Shown one piece after another: positions 1,966 through 16,486 of a stretch of 23,237 nucleotides of DNA; within the stretch, counting starts at the first letter, position 1, and each line of letters starts with the position of its first letter. A model generated the notes under the pieces. That model was given only the letters and a program-made list of their open reading frames with translations, was not told the origin of the DNA and did not search any database. This DNA is from a virus: positions 1 through 23,237 of IMG/VR virus record IMGVR_UViG_3300022934_000191; one strand, 5' to 3'. Made by a program: the position numbers and the translations under genes.

Positions 1966-3318
1966 TTAAATTTCCTCTAAGTCAGTTGTGAATTGGTCTT
2001 GGGGTTTTGTCTTTTTCCAAAAGTTCAAGGTTCGTTTCGTTTCAGCAATCTGTTTCTTTAATTTAACAATTTCGTCTTTTGTTAAAGTCATGATACCTAA
2101 TGAGAGCAATCTGGCACAGTCACCTCCTTCGGCCGATGTCTCGTTCATTATTTGTTTCTGAACTTGTGTTTTGGTATTATCCTTAAATACAACTCGGCCA
2201 TCAACCACAGCTTGGATAAATTCCATTTTCACGGTTAACCAACGAACCTCTTCCGTGAACTCTGTTTTACGTGCATCGATTCTTTTCTGTAAAATACCTA
2301 AACGATAATCGCAAAAATCCTTAATCAGTTGTCGTGCGTCATCATATTCACGTAGCTTACCATCGTAATCAATCACGGTTAAATTTTGGGCAAAAGGTTT
2401 ACTCAACTTAAATTTACTAATAATTTTAGATCGAGACCATTTTGCCGAAGTGTTTTGTTTCAGTTTTACTTCAAACCTGAAACCAGTTTTATCACATAGG
2501 TCCTCATAGGAAACAATGTCGCCATCATCTTCCAAACCATCAAGGACCTTCACATATGATTCCCTGTCAAATCCGTATGGCACTTCCGTAATGGAGAGTA
2601 GCGTTTTTGTTCGCTGAGTGAAAGTACCATACGCAATATATTTTGTTGGGTCTTCTTTGTTTTGTTCCACAGTTCCACTGAACTCTGGGAATTTAATATC
2701 AATAGGATTTGCAATATCACCTGTTTCCAAATATTCCAAACACGCAGCACTAACACTTTCAGGGCAATGAGGTAGAATATTTGTAGCGAAACCAGTTGCA
2801 ATACCTTTTGTTCCATTAATTAAAACTAAAGGAATGACTGGTAAGTAAAATGCAGGTGGTTCGTGTTCTGGGTCATCATGAACTGGAGATAAATCCAAAT
2901 CCTTAATGTACGTGTTGAAGTTATCTGAAAGGCGAGTATAAACATACCTTGCCGCACCAGCCTCTTGTACCAGTCGAGTACCAAATGAACCTCGGCCTTC
3001 AATTAAACATATGTTGTTATTCCATGTTGCCGCCATTAATTGACCAGCACCCGCTGCCGAAGCCTCGCCGTGATTATAACCATAATCGGAAATGATACCA
3101 GACACAGCTGATACCTTTTTAAAATCTTTTTTACTATTGAGTATTGATGAATACAAATAGAACCTTTGAACAGGTTTTAATCCATCAACCATATTTGGAA
3201 TCGCACGAGATTCAACGGTGTACATTGCAAATGATTTCCATTCATTACGTGCTACACTTGAAATAGGATATTCAGTACCTAAAGTATTTTCACTTGTAAA
3301 AGCAGTTAAATCACTCAT
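1966..3318 (-). CDS. 52: Type II DNA topoisomerase, breakage-reunion subunit (T4 gp52)
   Basis: A 450-residue protein close in length to T4 gp52 (442). It opens with the GyrA/ParC-type DNA-cleavage domain: a segment SRAIPNMVDGLKPVQR (38-52), a YGYNHGEASAAG loop (79-90) and the catalytic region AGAARYVYTRLS. By alignment to GyrA (RY at the active site), Tyr125 preceded by Arg124 is the DNA-linked tyrosine. A helical coiled region at about 340-440 matches the family. It pairs with gp39 encoded upstream to relax or decatenate phage DNA during replication. The ATG has a GAGG site 8 bases ahead and overlaps the cysteine-cluster gene by 8 bases. There is no separate promoter, so it belongs to the gene 39 operon. 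Confidence 0.95.
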   Translation of the reverse strand: MSDLTAFTSENTLGTEYPISSVARNEWKSFAMYTVESRAIPNMVDGLKPVQRFYLYSSILNSKKDFKKVSAVSGIISDYGYNHGEASAAGAGQLMAATWNNNICLIEGRGSFGTRLVQEAGAARYVYTRLSDNFNTYIKDLDLSPVHDDPEHEPPAFYLPVIPLVLINGTKGIATGFATNILPHCPESVSAACLEYLETGDIANPIDIKFPEFSGTVEQNKEDPTKYIAYGTFTQRTKTLLSITEVPYGFDRESYVKVLDGLEDDGDIVSYEDLCDKTGFRFEVKLKQNTSAKWSRSKIISKFKLSKPFAQNLTVIDYDGKLREYDDARQLIKDFCDYRLGILQKRIDARKTEFTEEVRWLTVKMEFIQAVVDGRVVFKDNTKTQVQKQIMNETSAEGGDCARLLSLGIMTLTKDEIVKLKKQIAETKRTLNFWKKTKPQDQFTTDLEEI

Positions 3319-3613
3319 AATATTCCTCTAAATTTATACCTCGGAAAAAGTTTTCCTTCGAAACTTTACCAGCACTTAAATCATCAATTAATCTCAATGC
3401 ATTATCTTTTGTTATCATTCCTTTCTCATAATTTATTAACATAGGACAAAAAAATCTTTGACATCGTTCTGGTCTGTTTTCATATATGGAACATTTATTA
3501 TCACTAGTAAGATTTATACATGGCAAAATTAAATCATCGCCACCATCAATTATTACTTTATCAAATAATGTACCATTACAACAATGACCACATTCAAAGC
3601 ACAAATTATCCAA
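3311..3613 (-). CDS. YkgJ/CxxCxxCC-type cysteine-cluster protein between topoisomerase subunits
   Basis: A 100-residue protein starting at a TTG (3611-3613). I chose this start because AAGGAG lies 7 bases ahead, inside the end of gene 39. The longer in-frame ORF back to 3649 begins with another TTG and has no ribosome binding site. The protein has the YkgJ-type metal-binding pattern: C5xxC8xxC11C12, then PC (32), C41, a SIYENRPERC segment (C51) and C56. The family is thought to bind zinc or an iron-sulfur cluster; the function is poorly known. It overlaps gene 39 by 8 bases and gene 52 by 8, so the three are coupled. A metal-binding protein here is unusual. Confidence 0.75.
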   Translation of the reverse strand: MDNLCFECGHCCNGTLFDKVIIDGGDDLILPCINLTSDNKCSIYENRPERCQRFFCPMLINYEKGMITKDNALRLIDDLSAGKVSKENFFRGINLEEYYE

Positions 3614-5435
3614 ACATAAACTCCTTACGCAATGATGAATCCTTACCAAACATCATTTGAAGTACATCAGCGTCGTCCATTGTGACGACATCGTAGGTTG
3701 GTTTATTAATTATAATACTATATTCGTCCTCTGTCAATGACCCAAGACCTTTTATGTATCTATGTTTCCAATTCTTTTCTTTTGATTTAAATGAAGAAGC
3801 TTCCTCATAAGTATAGAACCATTTTATATCTTCACCTTTCGTTGAAATCATAATTGGAGTTCTGGTAATCATTACTCTTTGTTCAGTTAAGAGTCGTGGC
3901 CAGAATTTATAAAAGAATGCAATTAATAATGGACTGATATGTCCAATACCATCATGGTCAGCATCAGTTAGTGTTGCGATATACTTATATGACATATCAT
4001 CAACACTGTTTGGATTATTAATATCCAAACCTAATACAGCAACCAATTCACTCAATTCTTTATTCTTTAATACATCAGCGGGTTTCATATCCCACGTATT
4101 CATAATTACGCCTCGCAATGGAAACGCACCTACTTTATCTGGGTCGCGAACCTTTAATAGGAAACCCATTGCCGAGTCTCCTTCCACAATTTTAAGTGTC
4201 GCATCATCTTTATTTGCCGCAATGTGTTTTGCAACCTTAACCTTTCTTAATTTTTTCTGAGCCAATGTCGCAGCTCTTTTATCAGCTGCCATTTTCTTGG
4301 CAAGTTGTGCTTCGATAATTGGGTCAATAATAACAGGTGTATTTAAAATCTTCCTTGCGATGGCTTGGAAATCTTTAATGTCAGCCTGTTCAACGTGTTC
4401 CTTAATATTACTTTGTGGATTTGTTAAGCGTTCTTTTGTTTGACTGTCAAATTTTGGATTAATAAAATTACGAGCAAACATTACAAAGGTCAAACCACCT
4501 TTAATAGTAGTTTTCATCACCTCGATTTTATGTTTACGCTTAATCATTGTGACAAGTTCATCAACAATACTATTCACAATATAATCTACATAATTACCAC
4601 CCTGTCTGGTATTCACGCCATTTATAAAACTATTAGAGCGGAATCCATCTTCAGATGGAGCAAAGAACATTGCCAGATTATCTGATTTTTCTATAATTGT
4701 AGTTTCATCAAATAATGCAGCGTATTTCTTTAAATCTGTGACCTTAATTCTTCTCTTATTAAAATAGAAATTAATTTCAGGGAACGCCATTTGTAATGAC
4801 ATCAGTCTATCTTCAATTAATGATACTGTGTCTAATTCTTGTAGTGTGTCGACTTCAAATAAGTCAAAGTCTGGTATAAAAGAAACTTCAGTACCTGAAC
4901 CAGCTTTGGCCCCTGTTTTAATTTTTAACTCATCAGCACCATCTTTACAATGTACCTCCAGGTATTTGCTGTCAGCCCATGTACGACCAATAAACTTTGA
5001 TGAAAGGAAGTTTGTCGCGGCCGAACCGACACCGTTGGTACCGATTGTGACTCTCTCGTCGTCGAAGGAAGTACCAGCATTAACCTTAGTCCATGCGGCC
5101 ACAGGTCTCAAAATCTCTTCTTTAGAGGTTTCGTCATAAATTTTATCTTGTGGAATTCCGCGACCATTATCAGTGACGGTAATTTTATCTCCGTCAATGG
5201 ATACATTAATCTTATTTGAGTATTTAAAATTAGTTCTAATCGCCTCGTCAATTGCATTATCTAATATTTCATCAACCATTTTAGATAAGGCAGGGACATA
5301 TACAGCTTTCTTCCATTCACCACAAACAAATCTTTCTATTTGTTCACGAGAACTAGAACCCATATACATACCGATACGCTCTCGGACATGCTGACGAGCT
5401 GTCAATATTCTAAATTGTTCTGTCTGTTGTGTCAC
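3606..5435 (-). CDS. 39: Type II DNA topoisomerase, ATPase subunit (T4 gp39 with gp60 part fused)
   Basis: A 609-residue GyrB/ParE-like subunit. The GHKL ATPase signatures are present in order: DEILDNAIDEA (E56 and N60), TDNGRGIP (from D89) and GTNGVGSAATN (about 132-142). The TOPRIM motifs follow as EGDSAMG near 420 and TLTDADHDG near 490. In T4 itself the TOPRIM part is split off as gene 60; here it is one uninterrupted frame. The start is GTG with a GGAG site upstream, 19 bases after the expected start of a strong early promoter. It is the first gene of the minus-strand operon. The product drives DNA strand passage with gp52 and ATP. Confidence 0.95.
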   Translation of the reverse strand: MTQQTEQFRILTARQHVRERIGMYMGSSSREQIERFVCGEWKKAVYVPALSKMVDEILDNAIDEAIRTNFKYSNKINVSIDGDKITVTDNGRGIPQDKIYDETSKEEILRPVAAWTKVNAGTSFDDERVTIGTNGVGSAATNFLSSKFIGRTWADSKYLEVHCKDGADELKIKTGAKAGSGTEVSFIPDFDLFEVDTLQELDTVSLIEDRLMSLQMAFPEINFYFNKRRIKVTDLKKYAALFDETTIIEKSDNLAMFFAPSEDGFRSNSFINGVNTRQGGNYVDYIVNSIVDELVTMIKRKHKIEVMKTTIKGGLTFVMFARNFINPKFDSQTKERLTNPQSNIKEHVEQADIKDFQAIARKILNTPVIIDPIIEAQLAKKMAADKRAATLAQKKLRKVKVAKHIAANKDDATLKIVEGDSAMGFLLKVRDPDKVGAFPLRGVIMNTWDMKPADVLKNKELSELVAVLGLDINNPNSVDDMSYKYIATLTDADHDGIGHISPLLIAFFYKFWPRLLTEQRVMITRTPIMISTKGEDIKWFYTYEEASSFKSKEKNWKHRYIKGLGSLTEDEYSIIINKPTYDVVTMDDADVLQMMFGKDSSLRKEFMFG

Positions 5436-8280: not shown

Positions 8281-8991
8281 ATGAAGGCAATATTATTTGA
8301 TGTAGATGGAACACTTACCGAATCAAGGCGAGTAATGGATTCAGATTTTAGAAATGAGTTTATCCAATTCTGCTCACAAAATGATGTATTTCTAGTCACA
8401 GGAAGTGACAAACCAAAAACGATTGAACAAATAGGGCTCCCAGCTTATAACGCTGTAAAGGGAGCATATCAATGTAATGGTAATGAATCATGGCGTGATA
8501 GCCGACTTGTAAAAAAGAATGATTTTACTGCTGATTATGATTTTAAACATTTTTTATTAAATGAAATCAATCGTAATGATTATAAAATTAAAACTGGTAG
8601 TCATGTAGAGTTCAGAACCGGTATGTGTAATTTTAGCGTCATAGGTCGTAATTGTAATCAACAACAAAGAGAAGAATATTATCATTGGGACATTAAAACA
8701 AAGCAACGCGAAAAACTTGCCTCAAAGATTATGAAGACATTTCCAGATTTGACAGCATCACTTGGTGGTCAAATCAGCATAGATATATACCCTAAAGGTA
8801 AAAATAAAGCACAGGTCGTTCAAGATCTCATTGACGAAGGTTATACAGAAATGGATTTCTTTGGCGATAAGTGCGAATATGGTGGAAACGATTTCCCATT
8901 ATCAGAAACAATACGCCTTGCTAAGCTTGGAAATGTTTATAAAGTAGATAATTGGGAACACACTAGGAGAATTATAAATGAGCAGAGTTAG
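8281..8991 (+). CDS. Phosphomannomutase-family HAD protein (eukaryotic PMM type)
   Basis: A 236-residue protein that follows the eukaryotic-type phosphomannomutase (PMM1/PMM2, HAD type IIB) end to end. It has LFDVDGTLTESR with the nucleophile D7 and acid/base D9, a VTGSD loop, a HVEFRTGMCNFSVIGRNC segment, GGQISIDIYPKG and FFGDKCEYGGND, which provides the Mg site. The length is near the family's (about 245). PMM converts mannose-6-phosphate to mannose-1-phosphate for GDP-mannose. One difference is PKGKNK where PMM has PDGWDK, so substrate or activity may have drifted. It sits 14 bases after tRNA-Thr in the accessory region. With the two methyltransferases it could feed surface-glycan change, though that link is inference. 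Confidence 0.8.
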   Translation: MKAILFDVDGTLTESRRVMDSDFRNEFIQFCSQNDVFLVTGSDKPKTIEQIGLPAYNAVKGAYQCNGNESWRDSRLVKKNDFTADYDFKHFLLNEINRNDYKIKTGSHVEFRTGMCNFSVIGRNCNQQQREEYYHWDIKTKQREKLASKIMKTFPDLTASLGGQISIDIYPKGKNKAQVVQDLIDEGYTEMDFFGDKCEYGGNDFPLSETIRLAKLGNVYKVDNWEHTRRIINEQS

Positions 8992-12209: not shown

Positions 12210-12473
12210 ATGCCTAATTACAAAGGACACAATGTCGAAGTACTGACACAAGCTAAAAAGAAAATAATTGATGATGCAACACAACCTTATAATGGGCTTT
12301 CAGCAGGACCTTTCAGAACTTCATTTGATAAAATGGAAGGCGTGTTTAGAAAAGAAGTTGTAAGTTATAAAGTCGTAAATGGATATTTGCAGAAAGAAAC
12401 TGCAAAGAGAGAATTTAGAGATGGAGATTACCATGATACGGTATCCATCGAAACACTACATAAAGTAGATTAA
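12210..12473 (+). CDS. Small hypothetical protein before the terminator
   Basis: An 87-residue protein MPNYKGHNVEVLTQAKKKII, followed by a segment PYNGLSAGPFRTSFDKMEGV and FRKEVVSYKVVNGYLQKETA. It looks like a compact beta domain with one helix. I recall related small proteins in marine T4-like genomes, not their role. It is the last + strand gene before a strong terminator. The ribosome binding site is weak. Confidence 0.6.
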   Translation: MPNYKGHNVEVLTQAKKKIIDDATQPYNGLSAGPFRTSFDKMEGVFRKEVVSYKVVNGYLQKETAKREFRDGDYHDTVSIETLHKVD

Positions 12474-12475
12474 GC

Positions 12476-12499
12476 AAAAGGGGCGCAATGCCCCTTTTT
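12476..12499. terminator. Bidirectional rho-independent terminator
   Basis: AAAAGGGGC (12476-12484) and GCCCCTTTT (12490-12498) form a 9-pair stem around a GCAAT loop. A T run follows on the + strand, and the run of As before it gives Ts on the - strand. It separates two convergent operons. Confidence 0.9.
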
Positions 12500-12500
12500 A

Positions 12501-12890
12501 TTATTTACCGAAAGCTTTTCCAGCCTCAGATATACCAAAAGCACCTAATGTCACAACAACGAATGATGTGTAGATAGTATCGGAAATCAATAAATCTTGT
12601 CCCCAGAATGCTGTCACAAGGTCACATATACCAAATGCAACCATTAACGCAAAACTCATGAACCCGATAATTGATTTCTCATTAATATCATTTTCGTCAC
12701 GGAACAGGGCACCAAATGAAAATTTCTGTTGAGGTTTTGCAGCTGCAGTTGCAATCTGTAATTCCTTAGAAATTTTTTCCATTTCTTTGATTGTATCTTG
12801 AGCTTCATCAAGCTTTAATACCATTTCAGTATATTTTTCAATATCAATGGTAGCTTGACCTTTGCCGGTGTCTACTGTTTCTTTTGCCAT
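12501..12890 (-). CDS. Membrane protein with coiled coil and two TM segments (possible holin-like)
   Basis: A 129-residue protein: a charged helical N-terminal half (EKYTEMVLKLDEAQDTIKEM, coiled coil about 15-48), an amphipathic link, then two TM segments at about 73-95 (IIGFMSFALMVAFGICDLVT) and 103-121. The C-terminus is short and basic. GAGG precedes the ATG. It is the last gene of a late minus-strand operon with three other small membrane proteins, a layout that suits a lysis or membrane-remodelling cassette. No endolysin is present nearby, so the holin idea is only inference. Confidence 0.65.
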   Translation of the reverse strand: MAKETVDTGKGQATIDIEKYTEMVLKLDEAQDTIKEMEKISKELQIATAAAKPQQKFSFGALFRDENDINEKSIIGFMSFALMVAFGICDLVTAFWGQDLLISDTIYTSFVVVTLGAFGISEAGKAFGK

Positions 12891-12891
12891 T

Positions 12892-13098
12892 TTATTTTAC
12901 CTCAGATTTCCATAATGTCCAAGCACCATAGAGTAAACCACCCCATGCCACTAGGTCAATCAATCCACCAAGTAAAAGATATCCACCACAAACGGCAATG
13001 ATAACACCACCATCTAAAGATGTTCTCTCACCTAATCTTGCAAGTACCCAATCTTTTCCAAGATGCCACATGCCCTTTAATGAATCGAAATTTAACAT
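12892..13098 (-). CDS. Small two-TM membrane protein
   Basis: A 68-residue protein with AAGGAG 6 bases ahead of the ATG. The soluble N-terminus includes MLNFDSLKGMWHLGKDWVLA and RLGERTSLDGG; then two glycine-rich hydrophobic spans follow (VIIAVCGGYLLLGGLIDLVA and WGGLLYGAWTLW). The start GxWxLGKDWxLARxxERTS is one I have seen in small phage membrane proteins next to holin-like genes. Its stop lies one base before the next gene start. Function unknown. Confidence 0.65.
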   Translation of the reverse strand: MLNFDSLKGMWHLGKDWVLARLGERTSLDGGVIIAVCGGYLLLGGLIDLVAWGGLLYGAWTLWKSEVK

Positions 13099-13121
13099 AT
13101 AGTTCTCCTTATTATATAGCT

Positions 13122-13286
13122 CTAAACAATATGTTCAGACCTACTTCTTTTAGCGGTGTGACGAACACCATTTTTTGTCACATAAGGTTTTGTAAGACCT
13201 TTTGTTCCTTCTTTACCAAACAAGAAACTTGCTATCGCTATAAAAGTCGGAACAAGTAATGCAACTAATAATACACCGTCAATCAT
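13122..13286 (-). CDS. 54-residue single-TM protein with basic tail
   Basis: An ORF too short for usual cut-offs. ATG at 13284-13286 with AAGG upstream, 3 bases after the IscA-like gene stop. The N-terminus is one hydrophobic span (MIDGVLLVALLVPTFIAIAS, FLFG) followed by a basic tail KEGTKGLTKPYVTKNGVRHT and a Lys/Arg run. It has the shape of a small N-anchored protein with a positive cytoplasmic tail. It fills an otherwise unexplained gap in the operon, which supports it. Confidence 0.6.
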   Translation of the reverse strand: MIDGVLLVALLVPTFIAIASFLFGKEGTKGLTKPYVTKNGVRHTAKRSRSEHIV

Positions 13287-13289
13287 TTT

Positions 13290-13613
13290 TTAAACCTTAA
13301 AATTTACTGAAACTCCACAACCACAGCTTGATACTTCTTTAGGATTTACAATTTTAAAATATTCGTTGAGTCCTTCCTGTATCCAATCTAACGTTGAACC
13401 TTCTAAATAAGGAATGGATAACTCATCAATTGCTATTTTAAATTTACCAAAATCTAAGAGAACATCATCTTTGTGAGTCGTATCAGCGTAAGTAATAATA
13501 TACTCCCAGCCAGCACAACCACCACCAGTGACACCAAGTCGGATAGTATCTCTGCCACCTTCCTTCGTTCTCTCAATCGCCTTAAGTATTGCTGCATCTG
13601 TTAATTCAATCAC
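13290..13613 (-). CDS. A-type Fe-S cluster carrier (IscA/HesB-like)
   Basis: A 107-residue protein with the three conserved cysteines of A-type carriers: C33 in GGGCAGWEY and C97/C99 in the CGCG end (SSCGCGVSVNFKV). The length is the family's usual one. These proteins bind and hand on Fe-S clusters or iron to apo-proteins. Versions are known in marine T4-like phages. The start is GTG, overlapping the upstream stop by 4 bases (GTGA). It lies in a late operon sharing a palindromic promoter with heme oxygenase and bilin reductase, both of which depend on a [2Fe-2S] ferredoxin. A role in supporting that ferredoxin is plausible but inferred. Confidence 0.9.
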   Translation of the reverse strand: MIELTDAAILKAIERTKEGGRDTIRLGVTGGGCAGWEYIITYADTTHKDDVLLDFGKFKIAIDELSIPYLEGSTLDWIQEGLNEYFKIVNPKEVSSCGCGVSVNFKV

Positions 13614-13909
13614 TTTTTCTTTTCTAATTTCTCTATTCGTTTTAGTAATGCTGCGATTTCATCTTTTAATTCTGTAGCACCACCAGGAGCAACAGGAGGA
13701 TGTGAGTCTCTCTCTAATGTTGCAATCCTTTCAGAAACTAGTGGATATTTTTCATGGAACTTTTTATCTTGTTTAATTAAATCTATGCCAAGTCTATCCT
13801 CAGCCCATTTATCAATCTTTAATAACCAAGGTTGCATAAAACTGAACGCGCCTGTAGTAGCCAACTTTAATATAATATTCTTAAAGATTGTAAGTATAAA
13901 AGAAATCAC
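13610..13909 (-). CDS. Membrane-anchored coiled-coil protein, first gene of a late operon
   Basis: I place the start at a GTG (13907-13909) with AAGGA 8 bases ahead, giving 99 residues. The frame is open to a TTG at 13969, but that lies upstream of the late promoter and has no ribosome binding site. The N-terminus is a membrane span (ISFILTIFKNIILKLATTGA). A middle region, WLLKIDKWAEDRLGIDLIKQ, is followed by a Pro/Gly-rich link (HPPVAPGGATE) and a lysine-rich coiled coil at the end (ELKDEIAALLKRIEKLEKKK). No family recognised. Coupled to the IscA-like gene. Confidence 0.6.
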   Translation of the reverse strand: MISFILTIFKNIILKLATTGAFSFMQPWLLKIDKWAEDRLGIDLIKQDKKFHEKYPLVSERIATLERDSHPPVAPGGATELKDEIAALLKRIEKLEKKK

Positions 13910-13941
13910 AATTATATCCTTTATTTTTGTTATTGTGCTAT

Positions 13942-13953
13942 TATTTATAAATA
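13942..13953. promoter_or_regulatory. Palindromic bidirectional late promoter TATTTATAAATA
   Basis: The 12-base sequence TATTTATAAATA is its own reverse complement. It contains an exact TATAAATA on the + strand (13946-13953) and another on the - strand (13942-13949). The + start is 46 bases upstream of the heme oxygenase ATG; the - one lies 33 bases upstream of the GTG of the membrane/IscA operon. Both distances suit T4-type late promoters. Confidence 0.75.
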
Positions 13954-13998
13954 CTTTCAGTATATCCAATGATTTAACAACTCAACAGAGGTGAATTG

Positions 13999-14619
13999 AT
14001 GTCAAATAACTTAAAAGAATTAACAAGAGCACACCACGATAGTGCAGAAAGAACAGAATTTGCAGACATGCTTATGTCTGGCCAAATTAGTCCAAAATTA
14101 TACCAAGAATATCTACACGCACAACTTCAAAACTATATGGTATTGGAATCAGCTGTAAGTGTCCCAATGGAGCTAGAACCAATTTTTCGCTCTACATTAA
14201 TTGAAGATGATTTACAAGAATTAGAGAATCTTTTCAATTTAGACGAAATCGAAGATAATCTACAATCAACAATAGAATATAACCATCATATCCAAACACT
14301 TATGGAAGATGGAAATAATGATGCTTTAATAGCACATCTATATGTAAGACATTTTGGTGACGCCCACGGTGGCCAAATAATCAAAAAGAATGTTCCCGGC
14401 AGTGGTAGAATGTATGAATTTGATGATAGACCAGGCTTAATTAAGGGTGTAAGAGAACTATTACATGATGGAATGGCTGATGAAGCAAAAAATTGTTTTG
14501 AATATGCTGAAAGACTTTTCCATGAATTAATGGAACGATACCAAGAAAATCCAGAAGAATATTTACCGGAAGCTGCATTGCTTGCTCAAGCAAATGGATA
14601 TCTAGAAGACTACGAATAA
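13999..14619 (+). CDS. ho1: Heme oxygenase
   Basis: A 206-residue protein of the biliverdin-forming heme oxygenase family. The N-terminus LKELTRAHHDSAER carries the proximal heme ligand, His13 by alignment of HDSAE with the HxxAE of known enzymes. The distal helix signature is HLYVRHFGDAHGGQI with G120, D121 and G124-G125. Length fits the cyanobacterial and phage forms. The reaction opens heme to biliverdin, CO and Fe2+, using O2 and electrons from ferredoxin. The start is ATG 13999 with GAGGTG ahead (a TTG at 13996 is discounted). The stop overlaps the bilin reductase start, so the two are co-translated. Expected late expression from the palindromic promoter. Confidence 0.9.
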   Translation: MSNNLKELTRAHHDSAERTEFADMLMSGQISPKLYQEYLHAQLQNYMVLESAVSVPMELEPIFRSTLIEDDLQELENLFNLDEIEDNLQSTIEYNHHIQTLMEDGNNDALIAHLYVRHFGDAHGGQIIKKNVPGSGRMYEFDDRPGLIKGVRELLHDGMADEAKNCFEYAERLFHELMERYQENPEEYLPEAALLAQANGYLEDYE

Positions 14620-15305
14620 TGGAAAGTGAATTATTTGATAGGCTGAGGGTATTGTCAGGCGAACTTGTTTCGCTGTTTGATAAAAGTATGACACGGTATG
14701 ACAATCCTAAACATACAGCAGATTTAGATGGTTGGAAAGATGCATTTTGGAAAAGCGATACAATTCGAAAAGCTCACCTCAAAACAATAGAGCCAGTTGG
14801 AAAGAATAAACTCTGGCTCATGCACATTAATATTTTCCCACAATTTGATGTTGACCTTCCTATCTTTGGTTTGGATATAGTAGCGAATCCTAAAAAGATC
14901 TCAGGTTGCTTTTGTGATTATTCACCTACATCTGAAAGATACCATCCTTTCTTAGATAAGTTTAAATTAGAAACATCTGGTTTGACTTGGACAAGAGCAA
15001 GAGAAATGCCAGATTGGGCTCAAGAAATTTTCAGTCCTAATATTGTAGGTGCTGGTTCAATACGAGAAGGAGAGGAGACAGACCAACTCTGTCAGATGGC
15101 CTTTAATCTTGCTTCCTTTTATTGTATGGAAATGGATAACCCAGTTCATCAAAAGGTAGATGGGCTGAATACAAGAGATGCTCAAAACAAATATTGTCGT
15201 AATCAGAAAATGAATAGAATGCTTCATTCATCAATCCTTGCAATGGGGATATCTGAAGAGCGCAAGAACCAATATGTTGAAGATGTACTCTTTGAAGAAG
15301 TATAA
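14619..15305 (+). CDS. pcyX: Ferredoxin-dependent bilin reductase (PcyX/PebS/PcyA family)
   Basis: A 228-residue protein with the bilin reductase signatures in order: RKAHLKTIEP (50-59), KLWLMHINIFPQFDVDLPIF (64-83), GLDIVA, KISGCFCDYSPT (93-103), WTRAREMPDWAQEIFS and near the end AQNKYCRNQKMN. The family reduces biliverdin with electrons from ferredoxin; PcyA makes phycocyanobilin, while phage PebS and PcyX make phycoerythrobilin. Asp100 in CDYSP is a candidate catalytic aspartate. I name it PcyX because the setting is a T4-like phage without visible cyanophage pigment genes; sequence alone does not prove this over PebS. One-base overlap with the heme oxygenase stop. Family sure, subclass moderate. 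Confidence 0.85.
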   Translation: MESELFDRLRVLSGELVSLFDKSMTRYDNPKHTADLDGWKDAFWKSDTIRKAHLKTIEPVGKNKLWLMHINIFPQFDVDLPIFGLDIVANPKKISGCFCDYSPTSERYHPFLDKFKLETSGLTWTRAREMPDWAQEIFSPNIVGAGSIREGEETDQLCQMAFNLASFYCMEMDNPVHQKVDGLNTRDAQNKYCRNQKMNRMLHSSILAMGISEERKNQYVEDVLFEEV

Positions 15306-16007: not shown

Positions 16008-16036
16008 TTGACAATTCAGACATAATGTAGTATAAT
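16008..16036 (+). promoter_or_regulatory. Strong early promoter P1 of a tandem set
   Basis: TTGACA (16008-16013), 17 bases, TATAAT (16031-16036): both hexamers perfect. The start would be near 16042, exactly at the base of a long hairpin. Confidence 0.85.
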
Positions 16037-16092: not shown

Positions 16093-16121
16093 TTGACTTT
16101 TTCTTTTAATCGTGTTATAAT
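16093..16121 (+). promoter_or_regulatory. Strong early promoter P2
   Basis: TTGACT (16093-16098), 17 bases, TATAAT (16116-16121). It carries the shared GGTGTTGACTTTTT upstream context seen in other early promoters here. Confidence 0.8.
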
Positions 16122-16171: not shown

Positions 16172-16200
16172 TTGACAAAAGTGGCAAAGTAGGATATAAT
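16172..16200 (+). promoter_or_regulatory. Strong early promoter P3 for genes 33 and 59
   Basis: TTGACA (16172-16177), 17 bases, TATAAT (16195-16200). The start would be near 16207, leaving GGGGAAG before the ATG at 16244 in the leader. Confidence 0.85.
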
Positions 16201-16243
16201 AGAACCAAATACAATGCAAAAACAAAAAGGGGAAGAATCCGAA

Positions 16244-16486
16244 ATGTCTGTAGTAGCATTAACACCAGATAAAATACATCATGAGATAAGCAAACATATA
16301 TCCAAGGGAGTTCCCTATATTGATGCTTTAGTTCACTTTGCTGAACAGAACGAAATTGAAATTGAAACCATTGCACAGATTGTAAAGAAATCTTCTATAC
16401 TAAAAGAGAAGATTAAAACTGAAGCAGTAGGTTTACGAATGGTAGAAAAAGACAATGAGCCAGATATCACAGACCATTGCAAGTGA
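16244..16486 (+). CDS. 33: Late transcription co-activator (T4 gp33-like)
   Basis: An 80-residue protein. The core KGVPYIDALVHFAEQNEIEI, then ETIAQIVKK and LKEKIKTEAVGLRMVEK follow the helical pattern of T4-type gp33 (YxDAxxxxxExxxIExE, then LKEKIxxEAxxL). gp33 bridges RNA polymerase and the sliding clamp so that gp55-bearing polymerase reads TATAAATA promoters; such promoters are found in this window. Gene order with 59 and 32 is as in T4. GGGGAAG precedes the ATG; an upstream in-frame TTG (16214) is not needed. It overlaps gene 59 by 32 bases. The assignment rests on motif and order. Confidence 0.75.
   Translation: MSVVALTPDKIHHEISKHISKGVPYIDALVHFAEQNEIEIETIAQIVKKSSILKEKIKTEAVGLRMVEKDNEPDITDHCK

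Follow-up and report, generated by a model that had tools for sequence, protein, structure and literature searches.

The virus record IMGVR_UViG_3300022934_000191 (23,237 bases, 36% G+C; analysed over its whole length and called the window here), from a marine T4-like phage, carries two divergent operons at positions 12501-15305. Genes for a heme oxygenase (HO) and a bilin reductase run rightward, and m119, an A-type iron-sulfur (Fe-S) carrier, m54, m68 and m129 run leftward from a palindrome lying between them. We consider it probable that these are two cargo operons driven by one bidirectional T4-type late promoter, the carrier being an optional component that is not required for bilin synthesis. 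The initial annotation of this DNA had located the carrier, the HO, the bilin reductase and the palindrome, all of which are present, and had further proposed that the carrier and the two enzymes stand under a common palindromic promoter and are tied in function.

The palindrome TATTTATAAATA (13942..13953) is formed by TATAAATA on the plus strand (13946-13953) and again on the minus strand (13949-13942), the two copies overlapping by 4 bp. T4 late promoters (gp55/gp33/gp45 system) have this motif and a gp33-like protein in common with the window phage, according to the accessible part of PMC1524935; the palindrome that two overlapping head-on late motifs form between divergent genes, as in the window, is not mentioned for T4 in that part. 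A gp33-like late-promoter transcription regulator is encoded 3' of the bilin genes (16214..16486, plus strand; PHROG 254, E 4e-13), and the phage thus has T4-type late transcription. The junction therefore shows both features of a T4-type late promoter, namely TATAAATA shortly upstream of a gene and an encoded late regulator.

Relatives were gathered in scans that kept the best 80 out of as many as 587, and the samples are weighted to close relatives; loci with an exact 400-mer in common were joined into clusters, and related clusters are not independent of each other. In 42 of 50 clusters both strands of TATAAATA lie within the 160 bases preceding HO, and the motif thereby supports the proposed common promoter. 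Within the window alone the palindrome is ordinary, with at least one copy of TATTTATAAATA (at most one mismatch) in 37 of 100 shuffles and four occurrences of TATAAATA against 2.85 expected, as might be anticipated if it were an operator or had arisen by chance in A+T-rich sequence. We hold that explanation to be very improbable because representatives of 195 clusters contain 48 copies of the 12-mer where 1.06 would be expected (copies were counted on HO-bearing representatives, and the base total and expectation were taken from the longest representatives), because 44 of the 48 copies lie within 200 bases of HO and the remaining four also stand at divergent junctions, those of a lipase gene, and because the spacing from palindrome to start codon is mostly 44-57 bases. 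The palindrome is retained whichever gene leads leftward, be it the lipase, m119, m68 or the carrier. One cluster (L004) has the leftward motif only. Four co-directional loci (L414, L417, L424 and L436) were examined, and the palindrome was not found in the gap upstream of their HO; it is also missing from four clusters in which no membrane operon was found upstream (L143, L147, L148 and L155).

From its motif and conservation, the palindrome is likely to be a bidirectional T4-type late promoter, and we infer that both operons are active late. Transcripts starting about six bases downstream of the motifs would have leaders of about 40 bases for HO and about 27 bases for m119. The latter value assumes the likely m119 start at GTG 13909, which is preceded by AAGGA; the longest open reading frame (ORF) runs to TTG 13969, a start that can be ruled out because it lies upstream of the leftward promoter. 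Since the promoter halves overlap, the two directions would be mutually exclusive at any instant, both being active in the late period, and co-expression of the carrier and the bilin genes is likely.

By homology, the first rightward gene encodes an HO of 206 aa (13999..14619, plus strand; PF01126 71.9 bits, cut-off 23; PDB heme oxygenases E 2e-9). Its H13 aligns with the HO-2 histidine in a conserved LKE-T---HD block, and the GD--GG motif is retained, as in enzymes of the HO-1 type. The HO gene overlaps by one base with that of a ferredoxin-dependent bilin reductase of the PcyX type (228 aa; 14619..15305, plus strand; PF05996 68.7 bits, cut-off 31). The closest solved chain is PcyX 5owg (E 5e-33), the best PcyA reaches E 9e-14, and the protein falls below the NCBI PcyA equivalog cut-off (99.6 of 206 bits). 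Its H69 and D86 align with H88 and D105 of PcyA; these two residues, like those named for HO, are what we take to be the active-site positions. The HO would open heme to biliverdin with release of CO and iron. The product of the PcyX-type enzyme is predicted to be a phycobilin, formed by reduction of biliverdin. An enzyme of the PcyX kind from phage CB_2 made phycocyanobilin and not phycoerythrobilin, according to the text available of PMC11480375. A phage ferredoxin was rejected as the electron donor, as no [2Fe-2S] ferredoxin scored above the cut-off among 14 long related contigs, and host ferredoxin is therefore assumed to supply the electrons.

The carrier (13290..13613, minus strand) belongs to the IscA/SufA/ErpA superfamily (PF01521 43.9 bits, cut-off 26.3; TIGR00049 91.6 bits, cut-off 58.8). 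It lies below the NCBI equivalog cut-offs for IscA (75.3 of 150.6 bits), SufA (80.6 of 136.2) and ErpA (69.7 of 117), and is assignable only to the A-type superfamily and not to any of the three proper. One central cysteine (C33) and two in a CGC motif (C97 and C99) are invariant in 12 aligned phage sequences and presumably bind the cluster.

Synteny in relatives shows the carrier to be optional. A first pass, combining scans with the reductase, the carrier and the HO, yielded 63 clusters, 51 of them with HO and 41 reaching 1.8 kb or more upstream; among these 41 a divergent carrier was present in 23 and missing in 18, and m68 and/or m119 were found in 37. When all scans were considered, 52 clusters with at least two membrane-operon genes were decidable: 27 had carrier and bilin genes, 21 bilin genes only, four neither, and none the carrier only. 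Ten further membrane-operon clusters could not be scored, including L064, whose contig ends before the carrier slot; nor could L387 be scored. The carrier is thus present in 27 of 48 bilin-bearing clusters with a membrane operon and absent from 21. A lipase scan gave a similar picture in 47 clusters (17 with bilin genes and carrier, 17 with bilin genes without carrier, 13 with neither and none with the carrier alone). PF01521 had no match in three long bilin-bearing records of 72, 170 and 201 kb, which may be incomplete.

Five state changes of the carrier suffice on a midpoint-rooted PcyX tree with 49 rows, against a mean of 16.3 after shuffling (0 of 500 shuffles as low); the tree scores L064 as having none, and one of the five changes is probably spurious. 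Because the deepest bilin clades of this tree all lack the carrier, the bilin genes probably came first, the carrier being added later and then lost in places. With 21 of 48 bilin clusters and the deepest branches devoid of it, a need of the bilin enzymes for the carrier, as the functional tie would imply, is not supported. The carrier appears to be optional cargo, for which an iron-recycling partnership with the bilin genes is possible.

Elsewhere in phages, such carriers keep different company. The carrier scan returned 61 clusters, of which 11 had bilin genes, none of these with an adjacent IscU, and 50 did not; IscU lay within 1 kb in 36 of the 50. Counting all loci, bilin genes are present in 31 of the 113 clusters with a carrier. 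The expected co-occurrence of carrier and bilin genes therefore holds in that the carrier is nested in a bilin-bearing clade, and fails in that carriers outside it are mostly bilin-less and accompanied by IscU. A-type carriers, also with IscU, were already known from T4-like marine virus genomes (Nishimura et al. 2017, PMC5332604); phage Fe-S clients were proposed there, and the accessible text states no link to HO or bilins. Our loci add that carriers outside the bilin clade often occur with IscU and those inside it do not. In bilin-less phages such as L089, L090 and similar ones, IscU-IscA is flanked by a T4-type lysozyme and a CsgG/curlin-like block, probably the curli operon described for pelagimyophages in the part of PMC7029224 available. 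In L290 (761-2164), a phage IscU is split by a Hint/intein-like insert (NifU_N in two stretches, with sub-cut-off PF01079 and PF13403 matches between them).

The leftward genes m119, carrier, m54, m68 and m129 are closely packed and end at a terminator-like stem (12476..12498) that separates m129 from the converging plus-strand gene at 12210-12473. The first of them, m119 (13610..13909, minus strand), encodes a protein with a hydrophobic N-terminus, a coiled-coil-like C-terminal HPPVAPGG-type tail and no family match. Directly downstream of the carrier, m54 (13122..13286, minus strand) encodes a 54-aa protein with a single transmembrane (TM) segment. The small membrane protein m68 (12892..13098, minus strand) has an ERTS-DG motif and is widespread in marine phage contigs; queries with three different members had no match in named phages. 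A two-TM C-terminal protein is encoded by m129 (12501..12890, minus strand), and most relatives have in this slot a membrane protein that is EF-hand-like and apparently unrelated. That the two form one family was rejected, profile comparison showing no relation, although the alignments were shallow and the comparison is weak. In many relatives a class-3 lipase (PF01764, 83 bits) leads the operon, and in some phages the membrane operon is co-directional and runs into HO-reductase-gp33-gp59.

The membrane proteins had been suspected of sharing the carrier's function. For most of them this does not hold, because in 25 of 52 clusters the lipase-m119-m68-2TM operon has no carrier, and the operon occurs without bilin genes too. 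Of the membrane proteins, only m54 tracks the carrier in the bilin clade: in the m54 scan it directly follows the carrier in 13 of 13 bilin clusters, and a carrier lies within 2.5 kb in five of 11 evaluable bilin-less ones. The leftward operon would then be a conserved small-membrane-protein operon into which the carrier and m54 were inserted in part of the clade. Whether it serves lysis or the envelope, with holin-like membrane proteins, a class-3 lipase and the carrier as a passenger, we regard as a tentative alternative, somewhat short of an even prospect. The lipase and small TM proteins do form a conserved operon, in bilin-less phages as well, under the late motif; m68 overlaps a lysozyme gene by four bases in L331/L333, and a cell-wall hydrolase (PF07486) adjoins the operon in L440. 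Against this, family searches gave no holin match, a lysozyme gene lies within 400 bases of m68 in just one of 106 clusters, the lysozyme of module-bearing phages is far off with its own spanin-like pair (our reading of the ORFs), and a lipase is missing from the operon of the window itself. A lysis role of the lipase/membrane operon is therefore plausible but weak.

As to what the carrier does, the initial annotation had it that HO frees iron late and that the co-expressed carrier reuses this iron or supports the ferredoxin feeding both enzymes. The common bidirectional promoter and the intact active-site cysteines agree with this, as do the confinement of the operon carrier to bilin-bearing phages (27 of 27 decidable clusters), the lack of IscU beside it, and further heme and iron genes in some module records, with ALA synthase in five of 13 (one partial, at a contig end) and IscU in three of 14, two of these three (G001 and G007) being bilin-bearing. 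We nevertheless think it unlikely, given the bilin-bearing clusters and long records without a carrier, the predominance of phage carriers in bilin-less phages and the failure to find a phage ferredoxin in 14 long contigs. Rather less doubtful, yet still on the improbable side, is that the carrier, with m54 as a partner, works for iron enzymes of the phage that have nothing to do with bilins, one candidate being the diiron ribonucleotide reductase (NrdB). NrdB is fused to glutaredoxin in related phages; among 16 bilin-less m54 clusters IscA lies within 2.5 kb in nine, and m54 stands between NrdB and glutaredoxin in four; IscU-IscA precede NrdA-NrdB in L104 (our reading of the ORFs); and the module-bearing G001 has a glutaredoxin-NrdB fusion about 5 kb from IscU. 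However, NrdA or NrdB lies within 4 kb in only five of 82 bilin-less IscA clusters, and the carrier here stands behind a late motif although the nrd genes of T4 do not belong to the late class. A heme-iron switch, suggested by an iron and heme gene theme wider than the module in G001 and G006, seems to us distinctly improbable: ALA synthase in the nucleotide-reductase region would boost heme early, the late promoter would then start heme breakdown and carrier synthesis, and heme iron would pass to late phage iron proteins, the bilin being a by-product or antioxidant.

We favour instead the reading of two cargo operons with an optional carrier, which most likely would supply iron proteins, late or general, with clusters from the host machinery (or, elsewhere, from a phage IscU). 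Several points weigh against it. The operon carrier was never seen without adjoining bilin genes (0 of 52 decidable clusters, L387 being unscored), which may reflect a one-way dependence on them, and no IscU lies within 4 kb of the carrier in bilin clusters (0 of 31), unlike elsewhere, so that its task may be a special one in this setting. The divergent cluster L145 lacks the palindrome, and the late timing is read from the motif. As for the functional tie proposed in the initial annotation, the contrary case named there, carrier and membrane operon without bilin genes, was found once when adjacency is relaxed: the 182-kb record G017 has the lipase/membrane operon and an IscA-type carrier 10 kb apart, and HO and bilin reductase were not found in it.

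Several related records suggest that the iron/heme theme is wider than the carrier-bilin module. Of the five ALA synthases, four score over the cut-off. In G001 the gene stands in a nucleotide-reductase region among the glutaredoxin-NrdB fusion, Cpn10, serine hydroxymethyltransferase and IscU; a putative phage IscS beside this IscU was rejected, the candidate ORF being the serine hydroxymethyltransferase. In G006 an alternative oxidase is flanked by NrdA and a glutaredoxin-NrdB fusion, with ALA synthase as a neighbour. No radical SAM clients were found in the 14 long related contigs, and a supposed ALA synthase between HO and PcyX in L131 proved to be a low-complexity 527-aa ORF. Side observations from the same regions include a stretch in L488 (2003-7229) with ALA synthase, DUF454, Cpn10, a glutaredoxin-like ORF and serine hydroxymethyltransferase, an enzyme that makes glycine, one substrate of ALA synthase; DUF454 adjoins ALA synthase in G006 also. 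The phage alternative oxidase (PF01786, 214 bits) is found at L490 5343-5924 (G006:C1:10848-11414) and also at G008:C1:35989-36552, and glutaredoxin is fused to the ribonucleotide reductase small chain at L488 758-1993 and L490 4125-5327.

The rest of the window carries T4-type genes for a topoisomerase, a UvsX-like recombinase, a DnaB-like helicase, a single-strand binding protein and a helicase loader, besides the gp33-like regulator. Three consecutive sigma-70-type promoter matches (16008-16036, 16093-16121 and 16172-16200; 12, 11 and 12 of 12 positions, with a 17-base spacer throughout) lie in the non-coding stretch 5' of the gp33-gp59-gp32 genes, an early-type block straight after the late-type bilin operon. 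Between two topoisomerase genes, positions 3311-3649 (minus strand) encode a CxxCxxCC protein, possibly zinc- or iron-binding (22.1 bits; cut-off 23). A eukaryotic-type phosphomannomutase-like HAD protein (PF03332, 121 bits) is encoded at 8281-8991 (plus strand).

Cassettes of hemO-pcyX and phage ALA synthase were already known (Wegner et al. 2024, PMC11480375). As far as the accessible text of that study goes, HO is followed by a PcyX-type reductase in T4-like marine phages as in the window, and the ALA synthase records match its 'broken cassette' phage group; to this the window adds the divergent membrane operon with an A-type carrier and the palindromic late promoter. In its main text, iscA, Fe-S, lipase and carrier are not mentioned. 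In Pelagibacter phage Mosig EXVC030M (MT647606), HO adjoins a PcyA-like bilin reductase with 32% identity to that of the window; the neighbours there are a 2OG-Fe(II) oxygenase, a ferrochelatase and neck genes, and no carrier is annotated within 9 kb. We found no report of a carrier beside bilin genes or of a palindromic bidirectional late promoter in the literature searched (mostly open papers, without supplements).

A palindromic two-way T4-type late promoter conserved across the whole clade would be a neat regulatory device. The arrangement indicates when the bilin genes are expressed (late, judging by the motif) and with what (a membrane operon and sometimes an Fe-S carrier), and this timing and these partner genes make the question of the role of bilin genes in phages directly testable.

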